From NCBI RefSeq assembly GCF_030124145.1, contig NZ_JASKMS010000012.1, forward strand, positions 1 through 64,000: a DNA stretch of 64,000 nt. The letters are read 5' to 3'. Origin of the DNA: Streptomyces sp. 378 (lineage in GTDB: Bacteria; Actinomycetota; Actinomycetes; Streptomycetales; Streptomycetaceae). Both the position numbers and the translations under genes were made by a program. Shown here one piece after another: positions 19,435-26,651 of the stretch. Position 1 is the first letter of the stretch. Every line of letters begins with the position of its first letter. The notes beneath the pieces were generated by a model that had not been told where the DNA came from, did no database searches, and saw only the letters and a list, made by a program, of their open reading frames with translations.

Positions 19435-19565
19435 GTCGCACCTCCGTCACGCCGCGCGGCAACGCCGCCGCGCTTGCGTGATGTTAGCCACATCGGAGAC
19501 GAGGAGTCAGCACCCCGGAGGAGACCTTTCCGTGACCTCCACAGCAAATGGCCGGTATACGACGC

Positions 19566-19597
19566 GGCTCCGCCCGCCTACGTCGGCGGACGGAGCC
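19566..19597 (-). terminator. Stem-loop downstream of leuA
   Basis: A strong inverted repeat, arms GGCTCCGCCCGCC and GGCGGACGGAGCC with one mismatch and a 6-nt loop, lies about 50 bases after the leuA stop. It probably ends leuA transcripts before the TerB-like gene. Confidence 0.65.
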
Positions 19598-19644
19598 CCT
19601 GTGGCGTCCTTGAGCGGCCTTCGGACGCAGACCCGTACGGCTGG

Positions 19645-21447
<1,803 letters not shown>

Positions 21448-21466
<19 letters not shown>

Positions 21467-21507
21467 CAGCTAAGGAGAAGCAGCCCGAAACGCATGATGC
21501 GCAGCAT
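21448..21507 (-). CDS. leuL: leuA leader peptide
   Basis: A 19-codon open frame, MLRIMRFGLLLLSCRGEGL, ends 81 bases before leuA. It contains four consecutive leucine codons, CTG CTT CTC CTT, of which CTT is rare in Streptomyces, as expected of a leucine-sensing leader. A -10-like TAGCAT lies at 21511-21506 over the first ATG, so the transcript may begin near 21500 and use the internal ATG at 21495 (15 codons, still with all four leucines). The hairpin described at 21424-21466 begins inside the leader. It fits classical attenuation: starvation for leucyl-tRNA stalls the ribosome and changes downstream folding. Confidence 0.65.
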
Positions 21508-21686
21508 GCTAGCCGAGCCCCTCCCGGCGCGTGGGGTCGTTCCAGTATGCGGGACCCGAAGCACATACGGGACAAAAAGTGCGCTATACCACTCCGCCAC
21601 GGAGCGTGAAGGGCGTTGTCACGGTATTTCACCAATCATGGTGGCGAGCAGTGACAGCATCGTCACGCAGTGCAAAGGTGCCGGGC

Positions 21687-22748
21687 ATGACGACTCACGG
21701 GGGCTTCGAGCCCGTCTTCTGCACCATCGTCCCGCCCCATGTCCTCGACCGGCTCGCCCGCGCCGAGGACCCCGCGCTCGCCGGTCCCGCCCGCCGCACC
21801 CTGCAGCGCGACGCCTTCGAGCGCACCCAGCGCCGCCTGACCACGGTCATCGGCGCCACCGCCGTCGCCGCGGTCCCCGAAGGCAAGCCGCGGCGCACCG
21901 TCCACGACGCCCGGCACGGCACCAACCTGCCCGGCCACAAGGTCCGCGGCGAGGGCGACAAGCCCGGCAAGGACGCCACCGTCAACCGCGCCTACGCGGG
22001 TCTCGGCGCCACCTTCGAGCTGTTCCTCCAGGCCTACCGGCGCGACTCGATCGACGGCAGCGGCCTCCCGCTGAACGCGACGGTCCACTACGACCGCGAC
22101 TACAACAACGCGTTCTGGAACGGCGAGCAGATGGTCTTCGGCGACGGGGACGGGGAGATCTTCCTCGACTTCACCCTCCCGATCGACGTCATCGGCCACG
22201 AACTCGCGCACGGCGTCACGCAGTACACGGCCAACCTCACCTACTTCGGCCAGCCGGGCGCGCTCAACGAGTCCCTGTCGGACGTCTTCGGCGCCCTGAT
22301 CAAGCAGTACACGCTCGGGCAGACCGCCGCCGAGGCCGACTGGCTGATCGGCGCGGGCCTGCTCGCCCCCCGCGTGACCGGCACGGCCCTGCGCTCCATG
22401 AAGGAGCCGGGCACGGCGTACGACGACGACGTCCTCGGCAAGGACCCGCAGCCGGCCACGATGGACGACTTCGTGCGCACCGGCCGCGACAACGGCGGCG
22501 TGCACATCAACTCGGGCATCCCGAACCACGCCTTCTACCTCGCGGCCACCGCCCTCGGCGGCCACGCCTGGGAGCGGGCCGGGCAGGTCTGGTACGACGT
22601 GCTGACCGGCGGCGAGCTGAGGCAGGACGCCCTGTTCGCCGACTTCGCCACGCTCACCGTCAAGGCCGCCCGGGAGCGCTTCGGCGACGGGGAGGAGCTG
22701 GACGCCGTGTCGAAGGCCTGGGAGCGGGTCGGGGTGCGGACCCTGTAA
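21687..22748 (+). CDS. Protealysin-type M4 metallopeptidase
   Basis: A 353-residue zinc metallopeptidase of the thermolysin family. The zinc motif is VIGHELAHGVTQY (HExxH), the third ligand is in GALNESLSDVFG, and the catalytic His is probably in GGVHINSGIPNHAFY. There is no signal peptide. The N-terminus GFEPVFCTIVPPHVLDRLA carries the short protealysin-type propeptide motif (C-x-I-x-P-P-x-x-L), which blocks the active site through its Cys and is removed by autolysis. Such enzymes are made in the cytoplasm. Start ATG 21687; earlier in-frame codons lie in a lower-GC stretch lacking homology. The gene 20 bases downstream looks like its inhibitor emfourin, so the two probably form an operon. 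Confidence 0.92.
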   Translation: MTTHGGFEPVFCTIVPPHVLDRLARAEDPALAGPARRTLQRDAFERTQRRLTTVIGATAVAAVPEGKPRRTVHDARHGTNLPGHKVRGEGDKPGKDATVNRAYAGLGATFELFLQAYRRDSIDGSGLPLNATVHYDRDYNNAFWNGEQMVFGDGDGEIFLDFTLPIDVIGHELAHGVTQYTANLTYFGQPGALNESLSDVFGALIKQYTLGQTAAEADWLIGAGLLAPRVTGTALRSMKEPGTAYDDDVLGKDPQPATMDDFVRTGRDNGGVHINSGIPNHAFYLAATALGGHAWERAGQVWYDVLTGGELRQDALFADFATLTVKAARERFGDGEELDAVSKAWERVGVRTL

Positions 22749-22768
22749 TTCCGTACTAGACAGGTCCC

Positions 22769-23035
22769 ATGCGGATTCAGGTGAGGCGCACGGGCGGGTT
22801 CGCGGGCATCGAGCGGCACGCGGAGGTGGACACCTCGGGCCGGCCCGATGCCGCCGAGTGGCACGCCCTGGCCGGGCAGGCGGTCGCCGACGGGCGGAGC
22901 ACGCCGCCGGTCGGGCTGCCGGACGGCTTCAGCTACCAGCTCACGGTGGACGGGAAGACCGTGTACTGCGCGGATCCCCGGCTGACGGCGGAGCAGCGCA
23001 AGCTGATCTCGCGGGTGCTGAAGGAAGGGGCCTAA
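22769..23035 (+). CDS. Emfourin-like protealysin inhibitor
   Basis: An 88-residue protein starting MRIQVRRTGGFAGIERHAEV. The R-x-G-G-F-A-G-I motif near the N-terminus, the central loop VGLPDGFSYQLTVDG and the C-terminal helix LTAEQRKLISRVLKEG match what I recall of emfourin (M4in), the inhibitor encoded next to protealysin in Serratia. It lies 20 bases after the protealysin-type gene on the same strand. Its job is probably to keep the cytoplasmic protease in check. This is recall of the family plus gene context; no alignment was run. Confidence 0.8.
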   Translation: MRIQVRRTGGFAGIERHAEVDTSGRPDAAEWHALAGQAVADGRSTPPVGLPDGFSYQLTVDGKTVYCADPRLTAEQRKLISRVLKEGA

Positions 23036-23056
23036 CGGCCGCTTCCCGCGCGGGCG

Positions 23057-23086
23057 TTGACTTCCGTTACCGTCGGTACGGATGAT
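23057..23086 (+). promoter_or_regulatory. Candidate promoter of the beta-glucosidase gene
   Basis: TTGACT (23057-23062) and GATGAT (23081-23086) are 18 bases apart and would start transcription at about 23093, one base before the ATG at 23094. This points to a leaderless message. Confidence 0.45.
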
Positions 23087-23093
23087 CCAGCGC

Positions 23094-24416
23094 ATGGCGA
23101 CTGACGCAGGCACCGCGATCCCCCGTTTCCCCGACGGCTTCCTCTGGGGCGTGTCCACCTCGGCGCACCAGATCGAGGGCGCCGCGGACGAGCGCGAACC
23201 GTCCGTGTGGGACGCGTTCACGGCGGAGCCGGGACGGGTGAAGGACGGCTCCACGGCGGCGGTGGCCTGCGACCACGTCCACCGCCACCGCGAGGACGTG
23301 GCACTCCTGGCCGGCCTCGGCGTGAACGCCTACCGCTTCTCGCTCTCCTGGCCGCGCGTGCGCTCCGAGAAGGGCCTGGACTTCTACGACCGGCTGGTGG
23401 ACGACCTGTGCGCGGCCGGTGTCCGCCCGGTGCCGACGCTGTTCCACTGGGACCTGCCGGCGGACCTGGACTGGCTGGAGCGGGACACGGCCGCGCGTTT
23501 CGCCGAGCACGTGTCGCTGGTCGCGGGCCGGCTGGGCGACCGTGTGACGAAGTGGATCACCCTGAACGAGCCCGCCGAGCACACCCTGCTGGGTCACGCC
23601 CTGGGCGTGCACGCGCCGGGGAAGCGGCTGATGTTCGACGCGCTGCCGGCCGCCCACCACCAGCTGCTCGCCCACGGCCTGGCCGTCCGGGCCCTGCGCG
23701 CCTCGGGCGCCGGGGACATCGGCATCGCCAACTCGCACGGCCCGACCTGGGCGGCCTCGACCGAGGCGGCGGACGTGGAGGCGGCCGACTTCTACGACCT
23801 GCTGCTGAACCGCCTGTTCGCGGACCCACTTTTGCTGGGCCGGTACCCGGACGGCATCGGCGAGCTGATGCCCGGGGACGTGGAGGCCGACCTGAAGGTG
23901 ATCGCCGAGCCGCTCGACTGGTACGGCATCAACTACTACGCGCCGACCAGGGTGGGTGCCCCGCAGGGCGCGCAGATCGAGTTCGGCGGGGTTACGATGC
24001 CCGCCGAACTGCCCTTCTCCGTCCGGGAGATCGAGGGACGCCCGGTGACGGACTTCGGCTGGCCGGTCGTCCCCGAGGGCCTCACCGAACTGCTCACCAC
24101 GTTCCGCGACCGCTACGGCGACCGGCTCCCACCCGTCGTCATCACCGAGAACGGCTGCGCGTACCCGGGCGTGGACGACCAAGACCGCATCGCCTATCTG
24201 GACGGCCATGTGCGGGCCCTGCACCGGGCGGTGGAGGCGGGCGTCGACGTGCGCGGCTACTTCGTGTGGTCCCTGCTCGACAACTTCGAGTGGGCGGAGG
24301 GCTACGCACGCCGTTTCGGCCTGATCCACGTCGACTTCGACACCCTGGAGCGGACCCCCAAGGCGTCGTACCACTGGTACCGGGAGCTGCTGCGGGCACA
24401 GGGGCCCACGGCTTGA
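23094..24416 (+). CDS. Family 1 glycoside hydrolase (beta-glucosidase)
   Basis: A 440-residue cytoplasmic GH1 enzyme that hydrolyses beta-linked disaccharides or aryl glucosides. The N-terminal signature FPDGFLWGVSTSAHQIEGA is complete, the acid/base Glu is in WITLNEPAEH, the nucleophile Glu is in VVITENGCAY, and the aglycone region SLLDNFEWAEGY is standard. The length is typical and there is no signal peptide. The ATG at 23082 (four codons longer) is possible, but the promoter spacing favours the ATG at 23094. No CebR-type operator or cellobiose transporter is next to it, so its link to cellulose use is not shown here. Confidence 0.93.
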   Translation: MATDAGTAIPRFPDGFLWGVSTSAHQIEGAADEREPSVWDAFTAEPGRVKDGSTAAVACDHVHRHREDVALLAGLGVNAYRFSLSWPRVRSEKGLDFYDRLVDDLCAAGVRPVPTLFHWDLPADLDWLERDTAARFAEHVSLVAGRLGDRVTKWITLNEPAEHTLLGHALGVHAPGKRLMFDALPAAHHQLLAHGLAVRALRASGAGDIGIANSHGPTWAASTEAADVEAADFYDLLLNRLFADPLLLGRYPDGIGELMPGDVEADLKVIAEPLDWYGINYYAPTRVGAPQGAQIEFGGVTMPAELPFSVREIEGRPVTDFGWPVVPEGLTELLTTFRDRYGDRLPPVVITENGCAYPGVDDQDRIAYLDGHVRALHRAVEAGVDVRGYFVWSLLDNFEWAEGYARRFGLIHVDFDTLERTPKASYHWYRELLRAQGPTA

Positions 24417-24476
24417 CCGCCCGCTCCCGGAGATGTGCGCGAGCCCGCGGACGGCCTTGGAGCGGGCCGCGGGCTC

Positions 24477-25430
24477 TCAGAACCCCAGTTTGCGCAACTG
24501 CCGGGGATCCCGCTGCCAGTCCTTGGCCACCTTCACGTGCAGGTCGAGGAAGACCGGCGTGCCCAGCAGCGCCTCGATCTGCTTGCGGGACTTGATGCCG
24601 ACCTCCTTCAGGCGCTTGCCCTTGGGGCCGATGATGATGCCCTTCTGGCTGGGGCGCTCGATGTAGACGAAGGCGTGGATGTCGAGGAGGGGCTTGTCGG
24701 CGGGGCGGTCCTCGCGCGGGAGCATCTCCTCGACGACGACCGCGATGGAGTGCGGCAGCTCGTCACGGACGCCCTCCAGCGCGGCCTCGCGGATCAGCTC
24801 CGCGATCATGACCTGCTCGGGCTCGTCGGTCAGGTCGCCCTCGGGGTAGAGCGCGGGGCCATCGGGCAGCAGGGGGACGAGCAGATCGGCCAGCAGACCC
24901 ACCTGCTGGTCGGCGACGGCCGAGACCGGCACGATCTCGGCCCACTCGAAGCCGAGCTCCTTGCCGAGCTGGTCGACGGCGATCAGCTGCTCGGCGAGCG
25001 CCTTGCTGTCCACCAGGTCGGTCTTGGTGACGATGGCGATCTTCGGCGTCTTCTTGATGGACGCCAGTTCCTTCGCGATGAAGCGGTCGCCGGGACCGAG
25101 CTTCTCGTTCGCCGGCAGACAGAAGCCGATCACGTCGACCTCGGCCCACGTGGTGCGCACGACGTCGTTGAGCCGCTCGCCCAGCAGTGTGCGCGGCTTG
25201 TGCAACCCCGGGGTGTCGACCAGGATCAGCTGGGCGTCCGGGCGGTGCACGATGCCCCGCACGGTGTGCCGCGTCGTCTGCGGCTGGTTCGCCGTGATCG
25301 CCACCTTCTGGCCGACCAGAGCATTCGTGAGGGTGGACTTGCCCGCGTTGGGACGGCCCACGAAGCAGGCGAAGCCGGCCCTGTGGACAGCTCCGGCCGG
25401 CTCTTCGGATGACTGGGTACGAACGCTCAT
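24477..25430 (-). CDS. era: GTPase Era, ribosome maturation factor
   Basis: A 317-residue GTPase that binds the 3' end of 16S rRNA and helps assemble the 30S subunit. The G domain has GRPNAGKST (G1), the switch region NQPQTTRHTVRG (G2), DTPGLHKPR (G3) and TKTD (G4). A C-terminal KH domain contains GIIIGPKGKRLKEVGIKSR, the RNA-binding GxxG turn. Two in-frame ATGs lie at 25439 and 25430; I prefer the second. It stands apart from ybeY and phoH, which in many Streptomyces lie just upstream; here the amtB remnant, PII and several other genes lie between. Confidence 0.96.
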   Translation of the reverse strand: MSVRTQSSEEPAGAVHRAGFACFVGRPNAGKSTLTNALVGQKVAITANQPQTTRHTVRGIVHRPDAQLILVDTPGLHKPRTLLGERLNDVVRTTWAEVDVIGFCLPANEKLGPGDRFIAKELASIKKTPKIAIVTKTDLVDSKALAEQLIAVDQLGKELGFEWAEIVPVSAVADQQVGLLADLLVPLLPDGPALYPEGDLTDEPEQVMIAELIREAALEGVRDELPHSIAVVVEEMLPREDRPADKPLLDIHAFVYIERPSQKGIIIGPKGKRLKEVGIKSRKQIEALLGTPVFLDLHVKVAKDWQRDPRQLRKLGF

Positions 25431-25484
25431 GGCGCCCATTGTCCCTGATCCACGAAGCCGCCCTGTACCGGACGCCTCTGGTGA

Positions 25485-26150
<666 letters not shown>

Positions 26151-26174
26151 CGCCGGGGCCGCGCCGCCGCGGTC

Positions 26175-26651
26175 TCAGTCGAAGACGAACGGGCCCGGTG
26201 ACTGCGGCCCGGTCGCCGTGCAGGTGATGGTGATGCCGAAGACGGTCATCCGCAGCGAGCCGCCGAAGGCCTCCAGGCTGTCGCCCGAGGCCACGGTGCC
26301 GCTGAGAGGGCCGACCTCGACGGGGGCGCCGGCGGCCATCGCCGGGTTCTCCGTGCCGGTGAAGTCGACGGTTCCGCCGCCACTCTTCACCAGGGTGAGG
26401 GCGGAGGAGATCGAGTCCTCTCCCAGCGCGATGGGCGCCGTGATCGCGGAGGACGTGACCGTGACGGTGGCGGCGGTGCCGTCCTGCGTGGCCGTGAGCG
26501 TGGCCTCACCGCTGCCGAAGCCGCCGCAGTCCGCGCTGATCGTCGCCGTCTGGGGGGTGACGGCGAGGGCTGCGGGGGCGAAGGCGAGCCCGGTGACCGC
26601 GAGGGCCCCGGCCGCCAGTGCCGCACCTGCTCCGATTCGCTTGCATCTCAT
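26175..26651 (-). CDS. Small secreted protein of unknown function
   Basis: A 158-residue exported protein. The signal peptide MRCKRIGAGAALAAGALAVT...FAPAALA ends with an Ala-x-Ala cleavage site. The mature part is rich in Thr, Ser, Gly and Val, alternates in beta-strand fashion, and has two cysteines (ISADCGG and ITCTATG), probably a disulphide. I recognise no enzyme motif. Similar small beta-rich secreted proteins are common in Streptomyces. It ends 25 bases from the convergent PII gene and stands alone. Confidence 0.78.
   Translation of the reverse strand: MRCKRIGAGAALAAGALAVTGLAFAPAALAVTPQTATISADCGGFGSGEATLTATQDGTAATVTVTSSAITAPIALGEDSISSALTLVKSGGGTVDFTGTENPAMAAGAPVEVGPLSGTVASGDSLEAFGGSLRMTVFGITITCTATGPQSPGPFVFD

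Follow-up and report, generated by a model that had tools for sequence, protein, structure and literature searches.

The closest described system is the protealysin-emfourin pair of Serratia, in which emfourin binds protealysin in a 1:1 ratio at the active site region and both genes form one operon (PMC9505478). According to the same paper, protealysin cleaves FtsZ and RecA, and a role in interbacterial competition has been proposed for Serratia. The paper also describes that an emfourin deletion strain of Serratia was obtainable and that E. coli stayed alive when it bore the protealysin gene by itself on a plasmid, with a lower survival of UV treatment (PMC9505478). A gene of interest for comparison in Streptomyces is SCO2529 of S. 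coelicolor, which is named smpA in a table (PMC5839063, PMC3293853) and adjoins leuA (PMC3293853). In adpA null mutants the level of SCO2529 mRNA is dramatically lower; in the sections considered here, AdpA-like motifs are given for two other protease genes, SCO2529 not being one of them (PMC2936110). The authors did not succeed in bringing SCO2529 into E. coli on pIJ6902, and since SCO2920, a putative secreted protease, failed in the same way, this failure is not specific for SCO2529 (PMC2936110).

The stretch of Streptomyces DNA analysed here (64,000 nucleotides, in the following called the window) contains a protease gene that is followed after a gap of 20 bases by an emfourin gene on the same strand. 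The positions of both genes, their motifs and the upstream features are summarized in Table 1. No tRNA genes were found in the 64,000-nt window and no Rfam match was obtained at 19500-26500.

Table 1 Features of the protease-emfourin locus and its upstream region (positions within the window)
Feature	Position	Strand	Basis
leuA (presumed), divergent neighbour, 573 aa from the ATG of MANRQQPSS	19645..21366	-	ORF; identity as given in the text
ARG-box-like site	21535..21554	n/a	16/20 bases as in the SCO2529 site of PMC5839063
Predicted protealysin-like M4 zinc metalloprotease, 353 aa	21687..22748	+	Pfam and PDB matches
Propeptide motif C-T-I-V-P-P-H, residues 12-18	21720..21740	+	sequence; PLN_propep match below cut-off
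Zinc and catalytic motif HELAH	22197..22211	+	sequence; alignment to 2vqx
Glu of ALNES	22269..22271	+	sequence
His of DNGGVHINSG	22503..22505	+	sequence
Emfourin-family protein, 88 aa, predicted protease inhibitor	22769..23035	+	PF20242, 54.9 bits

The original prediction for this locus, a protealysin-type M4 protease with a short propeptide motif and without a signal peptide, was borne out by the detailed examination of the protease. Pfam recognizes Peptidase_M4_C (181.9 bits) and Peptidase_M4 (93.3 bits), the motifs HELAH, ALNES, YNNAFWNG and DNGGVHINSG are all intact, and the best solved structure by sequence is 2vqx (E 7.5e-116, residues 57-350), which bears the title protealysin precursor in the fold search. 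By thermolysin, the glutamate of ALNES is presumably the third zinc ligand and the histidine of DNGGVHINSG the transition-state histidine. The Pfam family PLN_propep matches at the expected place (residues 12-40) with 14.5 bits, which is below the curated cut-off of 28.1, and the cysteine of the C-T-I-V-P-P-H motif is a putative zinc contact. A hydrophobic N-terminal stretch was not seen by eye, including when the start is moved to the GTG that lies upstream in the longer open reading frame. Taken together, the M4 domains with the zinc motif, the short propeptide with its PP motif and the start without signal-like features mark this protein as a predicted full-length protealysin-like M4 protease. 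The genome to which the window belongs encodes two further M4 proteases, which are located close together on another contig (G000:C67:746-3489).

The adjacent 88-residue protein had been assigned to the emfourin type, an assignment that was to be doubted if the protein failed to align with emfourin. The alignment was run, and the protein matches the Pfam family Emfourin (PF20242; E 1.2e-14) at twice the curated cut-off of 27 bits. This match and the position of the gene next to that of a protealysin-like protease identify it as a predicted emfourin inhibitor, and the genome holds no other emfourin above the cut-off. The similarity to the structurally characterized protein is distant. A profile of 31 relatives retrieved a single PDB chain, 6zyg ("Protealysin-associated protein"), with a weak score (E 0.041), and a phmmer search of the PDB with the window emfourin as a single sequence gave no meaningful match and missed 6zyg. 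When plasmids were searched with the window emfourin at E 1e-3, no match was obtained; this search is insensitive to distant emfourins, because a known Streptomyces plasmid emfourin was missed by it. As judged by the family matches, the window pair is real and belongs to the known protealysin-emfourin kind.

The co-occurrence survey that had been proposed together with the original prediction was carried out for 150 genomes of the window's genus, using a scan in which a limited number of candidates was scored; all genomes counted as positive are listed, and the numbers of extra copies apply among the matches listed. A window-like protease (E <= 1e-60) is present in 141 of the 150 genomes, and the first scan detected an emfourin in 137 of 150. 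In 136 genomes the emfourin is located downstream on the same strand, the two matches being separated by 25 to 315 bases, and an emfourin upstream of the protease does not occur among the matches listed. When the 13 genomes lacking an emfourin were scanned more fully, one (G006) was added, so that 137 of the 141 protease-bearing genomes possess an emfourin just downstream, on the same strand and within 1 kb. Since the genes adjoin in 137 of the 150 sampled genomes, the adjacency of the pair is not a result of chance. Besides G006, with its adjoining emfourin on the fuller scan, G045 was rejected as an example of a protease without emfourin, since its two genes are split over contig ends, and so was G050, where the adjoining emfourin frame is broken in two pieces (assembly of 1770 contigs); G010 is an artefact, its downstream sequence reading N. 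The two genes of G145 (L067, L068) lie approximately 37 kb apart on one contig. Among the nine genomes without the protease, G089 keeps an emfourin above the cut-off and the other eight have none above it.

Across the phylum, a sample of 296 actinobacterial genomes was searched with thresholds of E <= 1e-3 for emfourin and E <= 1e-50 for the protease. This revealed an emfourin in 21, a protease match in 27 and both in 19 genomes. Four seeming cases of a protease without emfourin (G157, G398, G409, G419) were rejected, since a refined profile, and only this profile, reveals the adjoining emfourin; with its inclusion, 23 of the 27 protease-bearing genomes also carry an emfourin. The remaining four comprise a frame without the N-terminal part of the protease (G285) and partial matches in frames of approximately 1200 residues (G177, G381, G423). 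In G367 the emfourin is situated about 1.2 kb downstream of the protease. An emfourin without a protease at E <= 1e-50 was found in G244 (31.6 bits) and in G435 (below the cut-off).

Two genomes are informative with regard to the separation of the partners. In G089, a lone emfourin follows the same leader block and ARG box as the window protease does, and in G443 no protease is present in the 3.3 kb surrounding the emfourin. A search of the whole genomes detected one M4 protein in each of them, at a different place; by eye, its start is signal-like, its propeptide is long and the PP motif is absent. Since both genomes keep the emfourin while their sole M4 proteins look secreted, an emfourin can outlive its protealysin-like protease. 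A protease without emfourin is rarer than the reverse at the main locus, yet it occurs for extra copies. Among the matches listed for the genus, four proteases (G011, G039, G046, G095) and eight emfourins are extra copies without a partner. The genomes with these four proteases each carry a main pair in addition, and no emfourin was found near the extra proteases, also when larger pieces were read. Two of the eight emfourins (L058, L059) have a protease just upstream once larger pieces are read. In the named set of loci, no emfourin was found within 3 kb of the protealysin-like protease of L153 and L175.

Several variants of the two proteins were observed at other places. Second protealysin-like copies with a C-terminal tail of approximately 50 residues are present in three genomes of the genus (L075:3108-4325, L076:2950-4524, L077:3305-4555); the tails have the look of coiled coils by eye, and no emfourin adjoins. 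A plasmid protease with such a tail (L193) has an adjoining emfourin. On the Streptomyces canus plasmid NZ_CP108710 (L191:763-6196), a protealysin-like protease whose C-terminal tail is acidic is flanked by an S8 peptidase and by a protein of 344 residues that weakly matches a membrane family, and an emfourin was not found there. Protealysin-like proteases are also encoded by Streptomyces phages of about 185 kb, namely Kela (L194:3501-4400) and Quantum (L195:3501-4397). They keep the C-x-F-I-P-P-H start and the HExxH motif, and no emfourin was found within 3.5 kb on each side. It is possible in principle that a host emfourin meets a phage protease. Divergent stand-alone emfourins starting with MLITV occur in four genomes of the genus (L061, L062, L063, L064), without a called neighbour common at the same position. 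A weak emfourin-like match (L065:4733-5212) belongs to a protein with a lipoprotein-like start by eye.

Within the phylum sample, one genome (G233) has a single reading frame that spans both protease and emfourin. In the genus of this organism, 8 of 11 genomes possess the fusion, G443 has a separate emfourin and two are without emfourin. Propeptide, protease and emfourin of the eight fusions align well, and the stretch between protease and emfourin varies freely. With this alignment, 84,980 species genomes were searched and the best 80 loci were kept: 32 are fused, 45 are separate with the emfourin downstream (in L155 about 1.3 kb away), and in three no emfourin was seen, one of these lying at a contig end. 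As the query used to rank the loci was a fusion, 32 of 80 overstates the frequency of fusions, and two of the 32 (L106, L107) appear, by their protein starts, to be identical to two of the eight genus fusions (L103, L104). The fused hosts include Knoellia, Pedococcus, Terrabacter, Humibacillus, Phycicoccus and Intrasporangium as well as Janibacter, Nostocoides, Micropruina, Microlunatus and Microbacterium. The linkers comprise approximately 11 to 82 residues, mostly of low complexity, and all six fusions tested exceed the Pfam cut-offs for M4, M4_C and Emfourin. The fusion of protease and emfourin in several actinobacterial families is well supported by these sequences, and a literature search of one open collection found no description of it among the papers listed.

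Two alignments were made with all 32 fusions, with 21 proteases and 21 emfourins out of the 45 separate ones of each kind, and with the window pair. The protease tree (81 rows) contains three changes between the fused and the separate state, which are weakly supported; the number rises to five when the three rows lacking an emfourin are included. Two long branches are joined in this tree. The fusion may have a single origin. The nearest named relatives of the window protease in this tree are from Streptomyces.

The start codons of both arrangements were compared as well. The 20 codons before the emfourin motif contain an ATG in 2 of the 32 fusions and neither ATG, GTG nor TTG in 8 of 32; 44 of the 45 separate emfourin genes start with ATG, as assigned by a script that prefers ATG. 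In 9 of the 32 fusions this stretch contains an in-frame GTG that is preceded by a sequence agreeing with a ribosome site at 5 of 6 bases, and in these a free inhibitor may be produced from the internal start. At L150, L157, L164 and L183, the stop of the protease and the start of the emfourin overlap by 4 bases (starts again by the ATG-preferring script), which suggests coupled translation.

Structure prediction was applied to the fusion from Knoellia sp. Soil729 with AlphaFold, and the models were evaluated by their confidence values and secondary structure. Both parts are predicted to be well folded, with a disordered linker between them (mean pLDDT 87.6, pTM 0.69; 92.4 and 0.76 without the propeptide), and in both models the inhibitor is placed on the enzyme without confidence. 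Foldseek with this model ranks the protealysin precursor first. The fusions are genetic evidence that protease and emfourin act on each other, and they offer ready-made material for solving the complex of both. One could assume that the fused chain is a doubly locked enzyme, made up of propeptide, protease, flexible linker and tethered inhibitor, and that the Streptomyces pair is the same switch in unfused form, potentially self-harming and opened by removal of the inhibitor; we would give this view somewhat less than even odds.

In the window, the divergent neighbour of the protease gene is presumably leuA, as judged by eye from its likeness to leuA sequences and from the adjacency of leuA and SCO2529 in S. 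coelicolor (PMC3293853). Among the other neighbours, we take two by eye to be a glycosidase and era, and no secretion genes are among those recognized. By its position, not by sequence, the window protease is matched as the counterpart of SCO2529. For the analysis of the upstream region, 31 loci were used, of which six were dropped because they lack the start motif. The ARG-box 10-mer CAGTATGCGG is present exactly in 20 of the resulting 25 regions, the window included, and the other five contain an ARG-box-like site with two mismatches in the 13-mer, so that a matching site exists in all 25. However, since the box is also kept in G089 despite the absence of a protealysin-like protease, it is not assignable to the protease and may serve leuA alone. 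ArgR retards the gap between leuA and SCO2529 of S. coelicolor (PMC3293853; PMC5839063), and the table in PMC3293853 gives expression for leuA there and not for SCO2529.

Our main reading of the pair is a two-layer lock, consisting of propeptide and emfourin, on a cytoplasmic protease, to which we assign a probability of roughly 0.78. The protease would be made as a zymogen with the short propeptide covering the active site. Once the enzyme has processed itself, emfourin expressed alongside would bind the mature form at its active-site region and keep it switched off, and activity would require a shortage of the inhibitor, for instance by its degradation or by unequal expression. This reading builds on direct observations: both genes belong to the families named, the catalytic motifs are intact, the genes adjoin in a constant order, they are near-obligate partners at the main locus, and relatives contain natural fusions. 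Against it stand the AlphaFold models, which do not place the inhibitor with confidence, the distance of about 37 kb in G145, the extra protease copies that lack an adjoining emfourin, and the lack of specificity of the E. coli failure. Self-processing and inhibition by emfourin are transferred to Streptomyces by analogy, and the trigger and substrates of the window protease are matters that we infer only. In Streptomyces, the setting would likely be AdpA-dependent development. The developmental role raised in the original prediction receives indirect support, namely from the lowered SCO2529 mRNA in adpA null mutants (PMC2936110). This AdpA dependence and the failure in E. coli fit a harmful developmental protease, without proving it, and a role of the pair in development is possible rather than probable in our opinion.

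Alternatively, the protease might kill the cell that makes it. Emfourin would then be the antitoxin of a toxin-antitoxin-like module, from which the protease is released under stress, during phage attack or in programmed cell death. The main-locus protease is indeed nearly always accompanied by emfourin, while emfourin stands alone in G089, at the same place, and in G443, the only other M4 protein of these genomes looking secreted and having a long propeptide. The failed transfer of SCO2529 to E. coli (PMC2936110) and the cleavage of FtsZ and RecA by protealysin (PMC9505478) would also agree with a harmful enzyme. However, the pair is very common in the genus sample and not patchy, the window locus has no match in the PADLOC defence library, and several extra protealysin-like copies lack an adjoining emfourin. 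Moreover, since the emfourin deletion in Serratia was obtained and E. coli with the protealysin plasmid lived (PMC9505478), Serratia protealysin is not simply lethal. We therefore consider a self-harming module of this kind to be unlikely, albeit with a real chance of being correct.

It is conceivable as well that the enzyme is an ordinary cytoplasmic protease for the housekeeping recycling of amino acids, which is tied to the supply of arginine and leucine via ArgR and leuA. The conserved ARG box in the gap between leuA and the protease, retarded by ArgR in S. coelicolor (PMC3293853, PMC5839063), would fit this explanation. But the box stays in G089 without a protealysin-like protease and may serve leuA alone, the table for leuA-SCO2529 gives expression for leuA and not for SCO2529 (PMC3293853), and a dedicated inhibitor is unexpected for such an enzyme, which makes this explanation improbable to us. 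Even less credible is an effector that is exported or injected against competitors or predators, with emfourin as its immunity protein. A function against competing bacteria has been proposed for Serratia (PMC9505478); the window protease, however, has no signal-like start by eye, and the neighbours recognized by eye are not secretion genes. The suggestion that the pair acts against competitors or predators found no support here, and we regard it as very improbable; the proposal on competition concerns Serratia.

With the two-layer lock as the preferred reading, the protealysin-emfourin switch moves from its Serratia setting to a very common pair of a major developmental, antibiotic-producing genus, and the link to AdpA is testable. 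If the release of the protease is harmful, the pair would be a concrete candidate for proteolysis inside the cell while Streptomyces develops or undergoes programmed cell death.

Thermolysin and bacillolysin are secreted and possess a long propeptide, and we know of no emfourin that belongs to them; the window protease shares their catalytic domains and motifs. Closer to the window pair is a Streptomyces pair on NZ_CP108712, annotated by NCBI as M4 family metallopeptidase and "protealysin inhibitor emfourin", which consists of the same two families in the same order with a gap of 16 bases. Unlike the window pair, this copy is located on a plasmid, and its protease is about 47 percent identical to that of the window and carries a C-terminal tail. 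The statement that protealysin-emfourin is known mainly from Serratia may hold for experiments, as far as the papers considered here go, but not for the genes, which occur in most of the genus sample and are annotated by NCBI. In comparison with the pln-m4in operon of Serratia proteamaculans, the window emfourin is distant, a profile being needed to reach 6zyg at E 0.041, its inhibitory function is predicted, and the pair is situated beside leuA, with an AdpA-dependent counterpart in SCO2529. Both loci nevertheless have in common an intracellular M4 protease with a short propeptide, an emfourin gene alongside and the same Pfam families.
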